In this document: positions 1 through 38,934 of the stretch, piece after piece
Position numbering within the stretch: the first letter of the stretch is position 1
Layout of the letters: the number at the start of each line of letters is the position of its first letter
IMG/VR virus record: IMGVR_UViG_3300020472_000068
Location: 1 to 38,934 of that record
Strand: one strand, 5' to 3'
Length of the DNA: 38,934 bases
From: a virus
The notes under the pieces: generated by a model
What the model was told of the DNA's origin: nothing
What the model saw: only the letters and a program-made list of their open reading frames with translations
Database searches by the model: none
Position numbers and translations under genes: made by a program

Positions 1-86
1 CTCCTATAAAGTTTGTTCCAGATAAACCACGCATTGATCCTATTTCTGGTAAGGAAGTAGATCCACAAACAGGCAAGCTTACATGA
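1..86 (+). CDS. C-terminal fragment of the holin-like 152-aa protein (5' end outside window)
   Basis: The frame is open from the window edge and encodes the last 27 residues, ending in the motif DPQTGKLT and TGA. It is the variant counterpart of the complete gene at 37708-38166, with Phe and Val replacing Leu and Ile at two places. Its stop overlaps the next start as ATGA, which implies translational coupling. The gene is cut by the window edge, not broken. See the complete copy for the proposed role. Confidence 0.85.
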   Translation, partial: PIKFVPDKPRIDPISGKEVDPQTGKLT

Positions 87-592
87 AACACTTTCTTTTG
101 CTGATCCTATTAGCAGCTCCAGTTAACGCAGGAGGCATTACCCATAAGATCACAGCTACAGCGCAAGCGTCAGTTGACGGAAGTTATTCTCACGCAAAAC
201 GCATTGGAAGCACATATTCTATGACTAGCTCTGGAGTTACAGCAGGAACAATGGGACATTTAGACGTTCCAGCAGCATCAAATAATGCTCTAACAGGAGT
301 TGCTGCAACGCATGGCTCAGGTTCCTATACCCAGACGACCGCAGGCGCAGCTACAACTTTTAGCGAAACATTCCTTCAAGGTGATGATACTCCAAGCGCA
401 ACATCTATAAGTCACGGAGCAGTCGGAAGTTTACCAATGTTGGGAGATACAATTACATATACTGGAGGAGATAATACTGGATTAGCTGCAACAATTACTA
501 GCGTATCTGGTGGGACTATTGGCTTAACTGCTGGTAAATCTGGTACTAGCGTAACTGGATCAATAACTTCATCTTTATCGATAGGTGATTAA
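83..592 (+). CDS. Secreted Thr/Ser/Gly-rich protein with signal peptide, unknown function (copy 1)
   Basis: This 169-aa product begins with Lys, a hydrophobic core of Leu/Ile, and an Ala-Pro-Val-Asn-Ala-Gly cleavage region near residue 16, a typical Sec signal peptide. The mature part is very rich in Thr, Ser, Gly and Ala with no cysteine, resembling an extracellular beta-rich or adhesive protein. It overlaps the upstream gene by ATGA and the downstream one by TAATG, so it is the second gene of a coupled cassette. It runs against nearly all other phage genes. A 94%-identical version lies at 38163-38672 (10 residue changes), so the protein is under purifying selection. I do not recognise a family. 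Possible roles are envelope modification, lysis or a decoration exported by the host. Confidence 0.88.
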   Translation: MKHFLLLILLAAPVNAGGITHKITATAQASVDGSYSHAKRIGSTYSMTSSGVTAGTMGHLDVPAASNNALTGVAATHGSGSYTQTTAGAATTFSETFLQGDDTPSATSISHGAVGSLPMLGDTITYTGGDNTGLAATITSVSGGTIGLTAGKSGTSVTGSITSSLSIGD

Positions 593-1014
593 TGCGCTAT
601 CTATTATTTTTTATCTTTTTATCCGTTCCAGCACAAGCAGTCCCAGTTATTCCAGGATTTAACTCAGGATCTACTACAGCAAGAACCGAAAGCAAACAAA
701 ATACAACTGAGTTAATAGAATCGTGGTCATATTCTACAGGCTATGAATATTCTGTTGGTGGTACTAACTTAAATATTCAAGGCGATATGTTACCTAAAAC
801 AGTTACTACAGGTACTCACGTTGTAGATGGAATTACTACTACTCATCATGGGATTGACCTTAATACTAAACCTACGGTAACTATGCACACCCAAGGAGCA
901 GCTACAAACCTTCTTGAAAGTTATCATGGACCAGGCTTAAAATCGTTTACCCGAATTAGTAGAGATATTCTTACCGAGTCTGTAACAGAAACAATGTCAA
1001 CATTTACTCAATGA
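592..1014 (+). CDS. Secreted protein with signal peptide, unknown function
   Basis: The 140-aa product has a short signal peptide ending near Ala-Gln-Ala (about residue 16). The mature domain is polar and Thr-rich, with several Thr-Thr-His/Gly stretches and no recognised catalytic motif. The start shares its A with the upstream TAA (TAATG) and the stop overlaps the next ATG, so translation is probably coupled. The 5' part of a variant is present at 38672-38934. The signal peptide region has diverged most, while the mature region is nearly fixed. No family is recognised. Export to the periplasm or outer surface is the only supported inference. Confidence 0.87.
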   Translation: MRYLLFFIFLSVPAQAVPVIPGFNSGSTTARTESKQNTTELIESWSYSTGYEYSVGGTNLNIQGDMLPKTVTTGTHVVDGITTTHHGIDLNTKPTVTMHTQGAATNLLESYHGPGLKSFTRISRDILTESVTETMSTFTQ

Positions 1015-2469: not shown

Positions 2470-3027
2470 CTAGCAGTCGTTCCATTGACCAGCAAGATCA
2501 CTAGCTGCATTTCCTACTTGCTTCCTAGCTTGACCAAAGAATATTCCTGCTAATACTGGTCCTACGATAGGAACGCTTGCTATAGCTGGAGTTACTTGAA
2601 CAGAAGTAGCATCAGCAATCATCATTCCATTTGATTTGCCTTGTGCCATCTTTTCAATACAAGCTATTTGTTCTGCTGTAAGTTTCCCATCTGAACCTTT
2701 TGGGTAGATTGCAAACTGAGCCACATCTTGTTTGTGTGTATATCTCTTCTTAACCCCACCATTAAAGGTAGGTTTTTCATCATCAATGATTGTTGTGACT
2801 AGCTTTGGATCATGTTGCTTAGAAGCAAAAGTCCATTCTTCTCCACCATCAGGAGCTTTTTCACTTCTTATTTGAATTGAACTATAAGGAGTGCTAGAAA
2901 GCTTTGCTATATCAGGAATACCTGAATCTTTACGAGCCAACAAATTAAGGCTCATAAAATTAGTGGCTATCAAACCTCCACCTAACACAAGAGAAGTTAG
3001 GCCATTAAATGATTTAAATTGGATCAT
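2470..3027 (-). CDS. Membrane-associated protein, unknown function
   Basis: The 185-aa product has a hydrophobic N-terminal segment (about residues 9-30) that could be a signal anchor. The central polar domain is about 110 residues. A second hydrophobic, Pro/Gly-containing segment (about 145-170) is followed by a short tail ending in Cys. The start overlaps the upstream small membrane gene by ATGA, and the downstream gene begins immediately after its stop, so the three form one operon at the end of the late region. I see no lysozyme, amidase or peptidase motif. Confidence 0.8.
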   Translation of the reverse strand: MIQFKSFNGLTSLVLGGGLIATNFMSLNLLARKDSGIPDIAKLSSTPYSSIQIRSEKAPDGGEEWTFASKQHDPKLVTTIIDDEKPTFNGGVKKRYTHKQDVAQFAIYPKGSDGKLTAEQIACIEKMAQGKSNGMMIADATSVQVTPAIASVPIVGPVLAGIFFGQARKQVGNAASDLAGQWNDC

Positions 3028-3227
3028 CTGTTAAAAGGTAAAGTTGGGCCTGTTGTATTAGGAATAGAAGGAATTTGTATTTGACTTTGAATGTTTCTAA
3101 TCAATTGATCTTGAACTGTAAAGATCATGTCATTTACAAATTCAGCTCTTTTCATGTAAACAAAACCTCCTCCTCCAACTGCTATTAAAAGAACAGCAGT
3201 ATTGACATAGGTTAGGATTTTAACCAT
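3024..3227 (-). CDS. Small single-pass membrane protein, unknown function
   Basis: The 67-aa product has one N-terminal transmembrane segment (about residues 6-25, with a Gly-Gly-Gly-Gly run). An amphipathic, Gln/Ile-rich segment follows, then a Pro-rich end. It opens the three-gene membrane block downstream of the tail genes, and its stop overlaps the next start as ATGA. Size and topology would fit an i-spanin- or holin-like protein, but no diagnostic motif is present, so this stays a guess. About 100 bp without a gene separate it from the tail genes. Confidence 0.75.
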   Translation of the reverse strand: MVKILTYVNTAVLLIAVGGGGFVYMKRAEFVNDMIFTVQDQLIRNIQSQIQIPSIPNTTGPTLPFNR

Positions 3228-12227: not shown

Positions 12228-15200
12228 CTACGCAATATCAGGCCTTCTATCTATGGTACTGGATTCATCGTTTCTAGGCTTGCTTTGATTTAAGATAATT
12301 TCTTTTGCTTTTTTCCTTGCTTCTTCCATGTAAGGAAGATGTTTCTTGCTTGTATAACTAGACCAAGCATTAAATAATCCTTCTTTATTATTATTTAGCC
12401 AAGGTTCATTTATAAAAATGTCGTAAGCAGCTTTTGCATTTAAGTTTATATCAAATAAATCATTTCTATCTTTTAACCATTTCCATTTACCCATGCGCCA
12501 TTGTCCTAAGTAATTTGATGCAGCTGTATCTATCATGTTTATTTGTAGAGGTCCGTAACTTTCATCTCCTTTATCTAAAGCAATATTATTTCTAATACTT
12601 CGAGTGTTTGTTTCTGCTCTTGAAATAGCAAGCATTGTTGCTAGCTTTTCTTCATCTTTAAATCCTTCTTGATATAAAGCATTACCTAAATCAGTTTGTC
12701 TTTTATCTAAAGGCGTAATGGGTTCCCAAGCTCGATCAAAGTCTCTTTCTTGTTGTCCTTTTAAATTTGAAGGTACTTTCTTAATATTAGAAATTGAAGG
12801 CAGCATTCCAGGTTGTAACTCTCCTGCTATTAATGTTCCTTTGTCTAAGATTGAAGAGGCTTGTTTATCGTTTTTTTTTAGCTTAAATTCATAATTCTGC
12901 TTTTCTTCATTACTTAATTTATTAAATTCAGGTATTGTAATGTTCTCTTTAATAGGAGGGAAAAGTTTATCAAATAATCCTGTTGGTATTGGTACTTCAT
13001 GTGCATTCATTTGACTTTCAAAGAACTCTTTAGGTGTTAATCCTGTTCGATCAAGTATTACATTAATAGCTTCAAAATCTATTTCTGATCTTTTTCTTAG
13101 TCTAAAGTCAGAACCTACGCTTAACTCTTCCCAACTAATTCCTTCTGGAAACTTTCTAGCTAATTCTTCTAATCTCTCAACTTGTTGTTCAAGAACACCT
13201 TTGTCATAAATAGGAGTTGTTTGAACTTCTGTTCTTAAAGCTTCATTCTCTTTTTTATTTCCTTTTCCTGTTTCAAAACCAAATAGGGCTTTTATTTTTT
13301 TATCTTCAAGATAATCTCTAATTCCACTTCCTTGATAGTCATATTCTTCAGTAGGTACATAAGCAACAATTCTGCCTCTTCTGTTTTGTAGAGGTTCATA
13401 TAATTCTTTCTGGCTTTCATTAAGTTTGTTGTATTCAGCTGGAAGAATACTGCTAAGGACTTCCTCCTCTTCTTTTACTTCTGTTTCTGTTTCTGTTGTT
13501 TGATTATTTGTTTGAGTTGGTGTTGGCTTGTTTCCTTGTTGTTGAGTTTGTAAAGAACCACTTTCAAAATCATTTGTTGGTTTGTTTTTGCCTCCTAAAT
13601 TAGTATTGCTGCCACCAGTTAGTTCCATAGATTTAAATATGTTCGTATAGGTACCCTTTTCACCTGTTGGATATTTAGCATCAATTTCTGCTTGATCTAA
13701 AACTTCGAGGTAAGATAGTCCTTGTTCTTGTAACTGTAATATTTTAGCGTCAATTTCATCTTGACTTGGCAAAGCTTGTGTAGGCTTGCCATTTTCATCT
13801 TTTACTGTGTTTCCCTTTTCATCTTTTAAAGTGTAATTATCAAACCAAGTTGATAATTCTTTTTGTATTTTTAATTTCATTTTAAGAGATTTGTTGTTAT
13901 TTTCCCCTTGTCCAAAGTTCCCGAAAGGACTAATTTTTAGAGCAAAGTTAATGGGTTTCATTACTTCTTCTATAGAAGTGTCTACCATTTTTCCAATTTC
14001 AGCCATTTTTACTTCGGCATATTTTTCTAATCGTTCTCCTAACTGTCGAAGTTCATCATCTTCTGGAGTTGCATTTTCTAAAATAGCTATCCGAATATCA
14101 GTTTTAGCTTTTTTTACATCATCTCCATAAAAACCATCTGCCATCTTCTTGCGAATTAAATTTAGTCTTTCCTTTGTTCCAGCATTATCAGTTCGAGAGA
14201 AAGCTTCTATTTCTGTAGCATATTTAGGATTTTGAGCTTTTATTCTTTCAAGTTCAGCGTCTCGTTCTGCTAGTTTTACAGGATCAATTTCTCCTTTTTC
14301 ATTTCTAATTTTCATTTTTCCTAGTTTTTCCATATCCTCTTCTATTTCATCTACTTGAATAAACTTTTCTAAGTCTTTTTCATCTTTGAATTTTTGAAGT
14401 CTTTTTTTATTAAAGTCAAGTTCGTGATCAGCTTGCATGTCTATATAATCAGGATGGTTTGTTAAATTCTTTGTTCCACCTTGACCCCAAGGAATATTTT
14501 CAGCTAATAGTTCAGGAAGCAATTCTGCGTTTTTCATAGACATCGGACCACCTCCTTTTGCTATAAGTCGATCAGAGATAGCATAAATATTTTGTAAAGT
14601 ATCTGTGTGGGCTTTTTTCAATGGTTGTCCTGTTACTCCTAATTTATATAGACCATTAAAATGATCACTAAATAAAGTTTTTAATTGATCAGTATCACCT
14701 GATATTGCAAGCTGAGCTCCTTTGTCAAGTACGTTAGAAGTATTACCAATGTAATCATCAAATAAAAATAGTTTATGTCTTTTACTGTGGTGCTCTGTAA
14801 TAGCAAATAATTGACTTGGTAAAGTTGAAGTAAAGTGTTCAGTAATTATTGCAGGACTTACACCTTCAAGATTTGAAAGTGCAGTGTTAATTTGATTTTG
14901 TCTCCAAGTTAAAAACTCAGGAGAGTTAGGTGCAAATTCACTAATTGATTTAAAAACAGGTTGACCATCTTCATCTACTTTGCCTGTATCAAATGGAAGA
15001 TCGTATTCAGTTTCTAATGAAGTTTTTAAACCTAAACTTGCTATTTGTGCTCTAGTTCTTTCTGCGGCTTTACGTCTAAAAATACTTCCACCAATTACTT
15101 CATTAGCAACTTCATCACCATCTTTTTTTCTAATTTTGCTGGTTATTTTTCCAAATGATCCATCATTTAAAAGCTTGTCAAGTTCTTGATTAACACCTAT

Positions 15201-15362
15201 AGCTTGCTCTTCTTTAATTGCTTCATCCATCTTGTTATCAAGGAAAGCTTCAATACCAGGATTAACAGCTTTTAAAGCTCTTGCTAAAACATCTAAGTCT
15301 GTACTAAGAGGTTGTACATAAGTGTCTACTGGTTGTGCTTGTGGTTGAAAACTGTTAGTCAT
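12228..15362 (-). CDS. Internal virion protein, T7 gp15 position, with C-terminal lytic transglycosylase domain
   Basis: The 1044-aa product is charged and helical over most of its length and lies between gp14-like and gp16-like genes, as T7 gp15 does. The C-terminal 150 residues hold a lysozyme-like transglycosylase pattern: Ser-Arg-Ala-Glu-Thr-Asn with Glu917 as the likely catalytic acid, then Glu-Ser-Tyr-Gly-Pro-Leu-Gln-Ile-Asn (934-942), equivalent to the family's Gly-Leu-x-Gln-Ile motif, and Ala-Ala-Tyr-Asp-Ile-Phe. It should cut peptidoglycan during genome entry. In T7 this activity is on gp16, so the enzyme has moved to the neighbouring core protein. A Thr/Gln/Glu-rich linker lies at about 605-640. 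Start and stop abut its neighbours. Confidence 0.88.
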   Translation of the reverse strand: MTNSFQPQAQPVDTYVQPLSTDLDVLARALKAVNPGIEAFLDNKMDEAIKEEQAIGVNQELDKLLNDGSFGKITSKIRKKDGDEVANEVIGGSIFRRKAAERTRAQIASLGLKTSLETEYDLPFDTGKVDEDGQPVFKSISEFAPNSPEFLTWRQNQINTALSNLEGVSPAIITEHFTSTLPSQLFAITEHHSKRHKLFLFDDYIGNTSNVLDKGAQLAISGDTDQLKTLFSDHFNGLYKLGVTGQPLKKAHTDTLQNIYAISDRLIAKGGGPMSMKNAELLPELLAENIPWGQGGTKNLTNHPDYIDMQADHELDFNKKRLQKFKDEKDLEKFIQVDEIEEDMEKLGKMKIRNEKGEIDPVKLAERDAELERIKAQNPKYATEIEAFSRTDNAGTKERLNLIRKKMADGFYGDDVKKAKTDIRIAILENATPEDDELRQLGERLEKYAEVKMAEIGKMVDTSIEEVMKPINFALKISPFGNFGQGENNNKSLKMKLKIQKELSTWFDNYTLKDEKGNTVKDENGKPTQALPSQDEIDAKILQLQEQGLSYLEVLDQAEIDAKYPTGEKGTYTNIFKSMELTGGSNTNLGGKNKPTNDFESGSLQTQQQGNKPTPTQTNNQTTETETEVKEEEEVLSSILPAEYNKLNESQKELYEPLQNRRGRIVAYVPTEEYDYQGSGIRDYLEDKKIKALFGFETGKGNKKENEALRTEVQTTPIYDKGVLEQQVERLEELARKFPEGISWEELSVGSDFRLRKRSEIDFEAINVILDRTGLTPKEFFESQMNAHEVPIPTGLFDKLFPPIKENITIPEFNKLSNEEKQNYEFKLKKNDKQASSILDKGTLIAGELQPGMLPSISNIKKVPSNLKGQQERDFDRAWEPITPLDKRQTDLGNALYQEGFKDEEKLATMLAISRAETNTRSIRNNIALDKGDESYGPLQINMIDTAASNYLGQWRMGKWKWLKDRNDLFDINLNAKAAYDIFINEPWLNNNKEGLFNAWSSYTSKKHLPYMEEARKKAKEIILNQSKPRNDESSTIDRRPDIA

Positions 15363-37202: not shown

Positions 37203-37272
37203 TGGTAATTTGCAAAAAATAAGATTGTTGTTAGGGTTAGATTGGCTTGAAAGTCCCCATTAAAAGCCCAAT

Positions 37273-37302
37273 AAAGCCTCCTCTGGTCATAAGGGAGGCT
37301 TT
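37273..37302. terminator. Bidirectional terminator-like hairpin
   Basis: A perfect 9-bp stem AAAGCCTCC (37273-37281) / GGAGGCTTT (37294-37302) has a 12-base loop. On the plus strand it is followed by a T-rich stretch (GTTGTTT), and on the minus strand by ATTGGGCTTTT. It separates the terminase block from the small genes near the reversed cassette. It could stop transcription from either side. Confidence 0.7.
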
Positions 37303-37328
37303 GTTGTTTCTATAGATAAGATTCTACT

Positions 37329-37493
37329 ATGTTTAAAGCTATTGGATCATTATTTGTTTATAAAAGTCCTAAACAAAGGGAAGGATATAAACATTTTTTA
37401 AGATATTTATCATCTAGAAAATTAATGAGTTTAGCTGAAACAACAGGACATTATTCAAAAACAGAATTGATTAGAAGGATTATGAGTCAATGA
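37329..37493 (+). CDS. Small basic plus-strand protein, unknown function
   Basis: The 54-aa frame reads Met-Phe-Lys-Ala-Ile-Gly-Ser-Leu-Phe-Val-Tyr-Lys-Ser-Pro-Lys, then Tyr-Lys-His-Phe-Leu-Arg-Tyr-Leu and a basic helix ending Ile-Met-Ser-Gln. It starts just after the terminator-like hairpin and has no clear ribosome site. Its end overlaps by 7 bases the end of the opposite small gene. A true gene is plausible because the composition is protein-like, but evidence is limited. Confidence 0.5.
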   Translation: MFKAIGSLFVYKSPKQREGYKHFLRYLSSRKLMSLAETTGHYSKTELIRRIMSQ

Positions 37494-37669
37494 TATTTTT
37501 TAGATTCTTCTAGTCTGACAACAGATTTTTCTAATTGAATTAAGCGTCTAAATATTTCAATAATATCTTTTTCTCTGCGTCTATTAATACTTCCAAAGGT
37601 CATTAAAACCATGCTTGCAAAAGCACCGATAATGGCAGCTGTTATTTCATGCACTGACGAATTAAGCAA
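37487..37669 (-). CDS. Small single-pass membrane protein with coiled-coil tail, possible holin or lysis accessory
   Basis: The 60-aa frame has a hydrophobic segment (about residues 9-27, Ile-Thr-Ala-Ala-Ile-Ile-Gly-Ala-Phe) and then a charged helix with Arg-Arg-Arg-Glu-Lys-Asp and heptad Leu/Ile spacing. The longest start is TTG, and an internal GTG at residue 6 is an alternative. Neither has a strong ribosome site. It is divergent from the plus-strand cassette, with a 38-base T-rich gap between them. Topology resembles small holin-like proteins, but this is inference. Confidence 0.58.
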   Translation of the reverse strand: MLNSSVHEITAAIIGAFASMVLMTFGSINRRREKDIIEIFRRLIQLEKSVVRLEESKKYH

Positions 37670-37707: not shown

Positions 37708-38166
37708 ATGAATGACGAAACCAAAAGCGAAACCCAAGACAAAAAAGAAAACAAAAAAAACCCAATACAAAGGTTAAAGGAGGGCTTTGATGATAAAGAA
37801 GAACAAGCCAATGCGATTACTACACTTATAAAAATTATTGTTCTTGGGTGGTCCGGTGCGATCTTGACTTTAAATTACGTTTCTATCCCAGGAATACCAC
37901 AACAAAAAATAGATCCAACATTCATAGCTTCAGTGTTTACAGGGGTTTTGGCCTCCTTTAATATTACTACAACGTCTAAAAAAGGTGATGGAACTTATAA
38001 ACTTGATAAAGAAAATAAGGACAAAGGAGGATTAAAAGGACTTGATAACGGTGTTCCTTATACCATCATCAAAGTCGAGACTCCTATAAAGTTAGTACCA
38101 GATAAACCACGCATTGATCCTATTTCTGGCAAGGAAATAGATCCACAAACAGGCAAGCTTACATGA
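37708..38166 (+). CDS. Holin-like protein with two hydrophobic segments, first gene of plus-strand cassette
   Basis: The 152-aa product starts with a Lys/Glu/Asn-rich cytoplasmic-type region (1-35). Two hydrophobic stretches follow at about 38-60 (Ile-Thr-Thr-Leu-Ile-Lys-Ile-Ile-Val-Leu-Gly-Trp) and about 72-90 (Phe-Ile-Ala-Ser-Val-Phe-Thr-Gly-Val-Leu-Ala), then a long polar Lys/Pro-rich tail. Two membrane passes after a charged N-terminus fit a class II-like holin or an inner-membrane anchor. Its end overlaps the next gene (ATGA). The last 86 bases exist as a variant at the window start. The family is not recognised. Confidence 0.82.
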   Translation: MNDETKSETQDKKENKKNPIQRLKEGFDDKEEQANAITTLIKIIVLGWSGAILTLNYVSIPGIPQQKIDPTFIASVFTGVLASFNITTTSKKGDGTYKLDKENKDKGGLKGLDNGVPYTIIKVETPIKLVPDKPRIDPISGKEIDPQTGKLT

Positions 38167-38672
38167 AGCACTTTCTTTTCCTACTGCTATTAGCAGCCCC
38201 AGTTCATGCTGGAGGTATCACCCATAAGATCACAGCTACAGCTCAAGCGTCAGTTGACGGAAGTTATTCTCACGCAAAACGCATCGGAAGTACATATTCT
38301 ATGAGTAGCTCTGGAGTAACGGCAGGGACAATGGGACATTTAGACGTCCCAGCATCATCAAATAATGCTCTAACAGGAGTCGCTGCAACGCATGGTTCAG
38401 GTTCTTATACCCAGACGACCGCAGGCGCAGCTACAACTTTTAGCGAAACATTCGTACAAGGTGATGATGTTCCAAGTGCTACAACTTTAAGTTCTGGTGC
38501 TGTTGGAAGTTTGCCAATGTTGGGAGATACGATTACATATACTGGAGGAGATAATACTGGATTAGCTGCAACAATTACTAGTGTATCTGGTGGAACTATT
38601 GGCTTGACTGCTGGTAAATCTGGTACTTCTGTAACTGGTTCAATAACCTCATCTTTATCGATAGGTGATTAA
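38163..38672 (+). CDS. Secreted Thr/Ser/Gly-rich protein with signal peptide, unknown function (copy 2)
   Basis: This 169-aa protein is the variant of the one at 83-592, with ten substitutions. Three lie in the signal peptide (Phe, Leu and His for Leu, Ile and Asn), and a cluster of five lies at about residues 99-113. Of roughly 47 base changes across the gene, most are silent, showing selection on the protein. It is linked to its neighbours by ATGA and TAATG. The signal peptide ends at Val-His-Ala-Gly. The mature chain lacks cysteine and has Gly-Asp-Thr-Ile-Thr-Tyr-Thr-Gly-Gly and a Ser/Thr/Gly-rich end. Function is unknown. Confidence 0.88.
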   Translation: MKHFLFLLLLAAPVHAGGITHKITATAQASVDGSYSHAKRIGSTYSMSSSGVTAGTMGHLDVPASSNNALTGVAATHGSGSYTQTTAGAATTFSETFVQGDDVPSATTLSSGAVGSLPMLGDTITYTGGDNTGLAATITSVSGGTIGLTAGKSGTSVTGSITSSLSIGD

Positions 38673-38934
38673 TGCGTTATTTATTATTAATAGCCTTTAT
38701 TTCCCTTCCATCACAAGCAGTCCCAGTTATTCCTGGATTTAATTCAGGTTCTACTACAGCAAGAACTGAGAGTAAGCAAAATACAACTGAGTTAATAGAA
38801 TCGTGGTCATATTCGACAGGCTATGAATACTCGATTGGTGGTTCAAACTTGTCAATACAAGGCGATATGTTACCTAAAACAGTTACTACAGGTACTCACG
38901 TTGTAGATGGAATTACTACTACTCATCATGGGAT
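38672..38934 (+). CDS. Secreted protein with signal peptide, 5' part (runs off the window)
   Basis: This is the first 87 residues of the variant of the 140-aa gene at 592-1014. The signal peptide differs (Leu-Leu-Ile-Ala-Phe-Ile-Ser-Leu-Pro-Ser-Gln-Ala), but the mature part matches except for Val/Ile, Thr/Ser and Asn/Ser changes. The reading frame is intact to the edge, so it is cut by the window end, not broken. Confidence 0.85.
   Translation, partial: MRYLLLIAFISLPSQAVPVIPGFNSGSTTARTESKQNTTELIESWSYSTGYEYSIGGSNLSIQGDMLPKTVTTGTHVVDGITTTHHG

Follow-up and report, generated by a model that had tools for sequence, protein, structure and literature searches.

A convergent seven-gene module of predicted membrane and exported proteins in marine picocyanobacterial phages, with a possible role in outer-membrane disruption at lysis

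The closest described counterparts of the locus reported here lie in the T4-like cyanophages Syn9 (gp161-gp167) and P-HM2 (PHM2_191-197), where the same protein families (designated A to G below) occur in the same convergent layout. These two genomes differ from our locus in that the A gene heads the opposite operon together with G, F and E; their genes are annotated as hypothetical only, and the deposited D starts hide a signal peptide. Homologues of E, A, C and D also occupy the same genome position as our locus, between tail-fibre and terminase genes, in P-SSP7 (genes 042-045) and among the opposite-strand genes of P-SCSP1u and P-SCSP2. These sets are reduced, B, F and G being undetectable in all three phages: P-SSP7 has a co-linear E-A-C-D set, and in P-SCSP1u and P-SCSP2 A-C-D faces a weakly matching E. 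A precedent for mobility is provided by pelagiphages, whose curli (type VIII secretion) genes form a multigene envelope system that has passed between podoviruses and myoviruses infecting a single marine host group (PMC9599517). In the ocean, carbon is released to a major extent through the lysis of Prochlorococcus and Synechococcus by their phages. Spanins were not detected in marine cyanophages by a systematic survey, which pointed to an N-out/C-in topology and to an outer-membrane protein as possible spanins that had escaped recognition (PMC6139136).

The window analysed here (the whole stretch of 38,934 bases, 36% GC) derives from an uncultured T7-like phage. It encodes a T7-type RNA polymerase, helicase-primase, exonuclease and endonuclease I, as well as portal, scaffold, tube, nozzle and terminase; no DNA polymerase is found among its large ORFs. 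The nearest cultured relative is Prochlorococcus phage P-SCSP2 (83% identity in the capsid protein, 75% in TerL, 74% in the portal), a member of the MPP-C clade of cyanopodoviruses without DNA polymerase (PMC9860041). Since P-SCSP2 is the closest cultured phage, Prochlorococcus is the likely host.

The two ends of the window (1-855 and 38080-38934) overlap over about 855 bases with 91% identity. Differences between the copies fall mostly at third codon positions, with dN/dS values (0.14 for B, 0.21 for C) indicative of purifying selection, and the last 77 bases are an exact match to positions 778-854. An exact terminal 77-mer and third-position differences are expected from a k = 77 assembly graph holding two strain alleles; we infer that an assembler with k = 77 halted at the branch between two strains. 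On the simplest reading, the ends would thus represent two alleles of the same genes, with the cassette present once in a genome unit of about 38,080 bp, circular in the assembly. The second copies of B (38163-38672, plus strand) and C (38672-38934, plus strand, truncated by the window end) would be strain variants rather than duplicate genes. A tandem duplication or direct terminal repeat was considered and rejected, the copies being 9% different, mainly at third positions, and the match closing in the exact 77-mer. End-repeat detection of the IMG/VR type would not catch circularity when the ends are 91% identical.

Gene A (37708-38166, plus strand) encodes a 152-residue membrane protein with two hydrophobic segments (residues 37-53 and 68-84) and charged termini, the layout of a class II holin. 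It matches DUF6450 (PF20048; 103.4 bits against a Pfam gathering cut-off of 25) and phrog_2714/721; searches of Pfam and PHROGs gave no known holin family, only DUF6450 and PHROGs without function. B (83-592; 169 residues; phrog_564), C (592-1014; 140 residues; phrog_650) and D (1011-1733; 240 residues; phrog_848/1755, homologous to Syn9 gp165), all on the plus strand, are predicted to be exported by a Sec-type route. C is a predicted beta protein that matches DUF6322 (PF19847; 85.8 bits, Pfam gathering cut-off 30.6). By a crude rule for signal peptides, 95 of 102 B homologues, 66 of 111 C homologues and 112 of 120 D homologues qualify, against none of 26 minus-strand genes of the window. Adjacent cassette genes overlap at their start and stop codons (ATGA, TAATG, ATGA) and are translationally coupled.

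Much of the original prediction is upheld by these data. It had described four coupled plus-strand genes, a two-segment membrane protein followed by three signal-peptide proteins of 169, 140 and 240 residues, running across the map junction between the late genes and the terminase of an otherwise minus-strand genome. The cassette does straddle the join of the circular assembly, its placement is supported, and the gene-sized ORFs outside A-D are on the minus strand, except for a small one at 37329-37493. The range proposed for the cassette (37708-38934) does contain A; the B and C sequences within it belong to the partial second allele, and complete copies of B, C and D are at 83-1733. The mature parts of the three exported proteins had been described as rich in Thr/Ser/Gly or disulfide-capable; cysteines are found in D alone, which has five (four invariant in the D alignment) and a conserved HxH, and B and C have none. 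Nor did the postulated promoter of the cassette's own come to light: no phage-specific motif is common to more than three regions of the window.

The small ORF at 37329-37493 (plus strand, 54 residues), upstream of the cassette, is conserved in related contigs, matches no family and is possibly a fifth plus-strand gene. A small membrane-plus-coil gene (37487-37669, minus strand) is divergent from A, and related contigs frequently have it in the vicinity of A. A strong hairpin at 37269-37306 with T-/A-rich flanks (-21.9 kcal/mol for a 66-nt stretch, z -3.8) separates the plus-strand genes from the terminase side and looks like a two-way terminator.

The cassette, coupled as it is, does not stand alone but makes up one half of a larger convergent arrangement. 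The plus-strand unit runs head-on into E, F and G on the minus strand, whose products are all predicted membrane proteins. E (1666-2469; 267 residues; phrog_570, Syn9 gp164) overlaps the 3' end of D by 68 bp; its product is rich in proline, has a single membrane segment near the C-terminus and ends in a basic tail. F (2470-3027; 185 residues; phrog_605, Syn9 gp163) has two hydrophobic segments, and G (3024-3227; 67 residues; phrog_568, labelled "plasmid stability" in PHROGs) a single N-terminal membrane segment. With profiles built from the window proteins, the layout of A, B, C and D facing E, G and in some cases F was found to recur in metagenomic contigs. Where D is flanked by 2.5 kb or more in both directions (38 loci, with some contigs entered twice), A and C were present in all 38, E in 36, B and G in 35 each and F in 11. 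F is divergent, and F-sized gaps between E and G persist in several loci. A to G therefore constitute one conserved module of marine picocyanobacterial phages, consisting of predicted membrane proteins (A, E, F, G) and predicted Sec-type exported proteins (B, C, D). Genes for a 2OG-Fe(II) oxygenase, a tryptophan halogenase and other proteins are inserted at module gene borders in some contigs (L006, L012, L019, L028, L030, L095, L117), the order of the module genes being unchanged. Pfam and PHROGs gave no known function for any member, and no mention of DUF6322 or DUF6450 was found in the literature searched.

In all 109 E homologues, a region with 14% proline precedes the single C-proximal membrane segment and a strongly basic stretch follows it, from which an N-out/C-in topology is inferred by the positive-inside rule. 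B and C have a motif in common and may be paralogues; the B profile also matches C. The AlphaFold2 model of C, of fair confidence (pLDDT 84, pTM 0.43), is a beta protein with N- and C-terminal strands of 24-25 residues. Its best Foldseek match, to the upper-tail protein of phage Andhra, is weak (E 9e-3, TM 0.31), and VIA-align comparison with beta-barrel pore proteins gave Z scores of 3.3 at most, a weak likeness to pore or collar rings. The model of D is poor (pLDDT 62), with a long helix visible, and fold searches with it gave weak matches. The strand-then-long-helix layout of D prompted a comparison with TolC/OEP proteins, in which two of 53 members matched at E 0.13 and hhalign returned a probability of 0.9% (P 0.06), giving no clear support. 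PDB sequence searches with the C and D profiles returned chance-level matches only.

Far from being peculiar to this phage, the cassette proved widespread in marine cyanophages, and the search for the block elsewhere that had been suggested with the original prediction found it in metagenomic contigs and in both T4-like and T7-like cyanophages. S-IOM18, like Syn9, carries the A-G families. The module of S-SCSM1 comprises genes 163-167 plus an unannotated D at 135467-136114, and A, C and D are present in S-TIM5, a cyanomyovirus of a different lineage. In the T7-like Oinezvirus S37C6, A-B-C-D is set against E and G, and the T7-like laboratory cyanophage S-TIP37 carries D. A tblastn search with P-SSP7 D matched 449 of 50,697 phage records, all of them marine phages or cyanophages going by record names (Synechococcus 307, Cyanophage 78, Prochlorococcus 51, Marine 9, uncultured 3, Tiamatvirus 1). 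For scale, cyanomyovirus hsp20 was found in 373 Synechococcus, 66 Cyanophage and 24 Prochlorococcus records; D is thus common, not universal. It was not found in Syn5, P60, PSS2, S-PM2 or S-CREM2.

Five further D matches, in bacterial assemblies, come with the rest of the module. In NZ_RMVE01000006.1, filed as Nonlabens xiamenensis, the module is surrounded by cyanomyovirus uvsX, hsp20, regA and gp44 genes, so that this record looks like a phage contig placed with the wrong host; the module-bearing assemblies L131, L133 and L135 likewise look misbinned or co-assembled. No cellular homologues were found beyond such phage-like contigs. In three deposited annotations the start of D is misplaced or the gene is left out, which masks its signal peptide: P-SSP7 gene 045 (38690-39238) is annotated without an upstream TTG start that adds the signal peptide, the start of Syn9 gp165 lies inside gp166, and D of S-SCSM1 is missing from the annotation.

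The closeness of the virion genes to P-SCSP2 is not mirrored in the module. Using tblastn (E 1e-3), B, C, D and E of the window have no match in P-SCSP2, and A matches at 33% only. In a maximum-likelihood tree of D, in which the P-SSP7 and P-SCSP rows occupy only about one third of the columns, a branch with support 99/96 separates P-SSP7 and the P-SCSP phages from the T4-like phages and the window lineage; a tree of C supports the same split less strongly. The combination of P-SCSP2-like virion genes with a D that groups with those of T4-like phages points to module exchange between viral families, and the lineage of the window most likely exchanged its module with a pool that includes T4-like phages.

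An envelope role in general, as originally proposed, is supported, and among envelope change, exclusion and lysis or export, lysis would fit best. That unrelated phage families infecting one host group share this gene set suggests a function matched to the host envelope, not to the type of virion. T7 keeps its holin and spanin genes between tail-fibre and terminase genes, and the module lies between these genes in its T7-like carriers. The holin-like layout of A, the predicted signal peptides of B, C and D and the charge pattern of E, which fits the topology proposed for an unrecognised i-spanin, also speak for lysis, as do the failure to find a credible lipoprotein gene or a separate endolysin in the window and the lack of a virion tag on the annotated module genes of S-SCSM1. 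Seventeen of 21 picocyanobacterial phages listed as spanin-less (a count that leaves out S-CBS4) have a homologue of A, C or D: P-SSP7, P-HM1, P-HM2, P-RSM4, P-SSM2, P-SSM4, P-SSM7, Syn1, Syn33, S-RSM4, S-ShM2, S-SM1, S-SM2, S-SSM5, S-SSM7, Syn19 and Syn9. None was found in PSS2, P60, Syn5 and S-PM2; these four being spanin-less yet without D, the module is not needed by every cyanophage. Shared ancestry alone could account for the correlation between module and spanin absence.

We put at roughly 0.4 the probability that the module serves to disrupt the outer membrane at lysis, letting the progeny out. Expressed late, it would stand in for spanins, but with no lipoprotein among its parts. The role of A would be that of a class-II-holin-like inner-membrane protein. 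After export, B, C and D would assemble in the periplasm or in the outer membrane, where C would contribute long beta strands and D a long helix together with a beta part held by disulfides. An inner-membrane anchor would leave the proline-rich N-terminal part of E in the periplasm, in contact with D or C, and F and G would serve as accessory membrane components. Once the inner membrane and peptidoglycan are disrupted, the complex of E with D or C would change in such a way that the outer membrane is opened or fused. A more ambitious proposition appears rather doubtful: that exported beta proteins and an inner-membrane partner of N-out topology make up a new class of lipoprotein-free machine for outer-membrane disruption, which most marine cyanophages would share for their egress and which would have been transferred as a unit between the T4-like and T7-like families.

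Module proteins have no homology to known lysis proteins in Pfam or PHROGs. The window has no credible lipoprotein gene, a six-frame lipobox scan giving one antisense match inside the portal gene, and the o-spanin lipobox is absent from B, C and D. The basic tail after the C-proximal segment of E (109 of 109) does not agree with a type II i-spanin (N-in, C-out, coiled coil), and no module protein combines the N-terminal lipobox and C-terminal transmembrane domain of a unimolecular spanin. No separate endolysin was recognised in the window or near the module; a GH19 domain was found in S-CREM2 only, among 15 records. Resemblance to a peptidoglycan hydrolase was seen in a single stretch of the window, residues 897-982 of an internal virion protein (12228-15362, minus strand), as a sub-threshold, lysozyme-like SLT_3 match (E 0.0026). 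Against a lysis function, some 200 residues of E would need to cross the membrane although the protein has no cleavable signal, and the block of T4-like phages adjoins hsp20 and regA and not late genes. A T4-type late promoter (CTAAATA) precedes B in one cyanomyovirus, S-SCSM1; the others have none or variants.

Superinfection exclusion or surface remodelling, in which the exported proteins would coat or alter the infected cell and block adsorption or injection by competing cyanophages, is unlikely in our estimate. Strain-to-strain variation in exported beta proteins rich in Thr, Ser and Gly would suit it, as would a distribution specific to one host group, and the surface-exclusion lipoprotein TraT is listed by Foldseek for D, at chance level only. 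However, the dN/dS values of 0.14-0.21 between alleles contrast with the diversification often seen in exclusion genes, and seven genes, four of them for membrane proteins, make a large exclusion system. The joint presence of inner-membrane and exported parts, the weak resemblance of C to pore proteins, and the oxygenase and halogenase genes at module borders are consistent with an auxiliary trans-envelope channel, or another device altering host uptake or export during infection. This we hold to be rather improbable, given that the module contains no transporter or ATPase domain, that the TolC/OEP likeness of D is unsupported and that homologues were found in phage-like contigs only. A curli identity was discarded, as no CsgG, CsgF or CsgA/B match was obtained in Pfam or PHROGs.

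A function in the virion or in adsorption, as decoration, fibre or collar components that keep their hydrophobic N-terminal stretches uncleaved, seems quite improbable. The Thr/Ser/Gly-rich beta sequence of B and C, the Andhra tail protein as best PDB match of C and the tail-fibre genes adjoining the module in T7-like members speak for virion parts. On the other hand, the signal-peptide-like N-termini of B, C and D are conserved, the block is distant from structural genes in T4-like phages, and S-SCSM1 genes 163-167 carry no virion mass-spectrometry tag although 45 virion proteins were detected. Detection as ordinary virion parts, the outcome named beforehand as contradicting the original prediction, is weakened accordingly for the annotated genes; D, unannotated in S-SCSM1, falls outside the comparison. 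Gp155 and gp156 of S-CREM2, candidate module virion proteins by position, proved unrelated, and this phage has no D.

The route through the outer membrane is an open question for cyanophages, listed as spanin-less (PMC6139136), and lysis by the module offers a concrete candidate for it. The likeness to the spanins of lambda (Rz/Rz1), T4 (PseT.3/PseT.2) and T1 (gp11) is in the proposed job only: an inner-membrane protein would work with an exported partner, which carries the cysteines. Unlike spanins, the module is without a lipoprotein, the predicted topology of E is opposite to that of Rz, and there is no sequence similarity. With the pelagiphage curli genes the module shares no protein family, and the host group is another; it would follow these genes as the second case in which a multigene envelope system has passed from one marine phage family to another.
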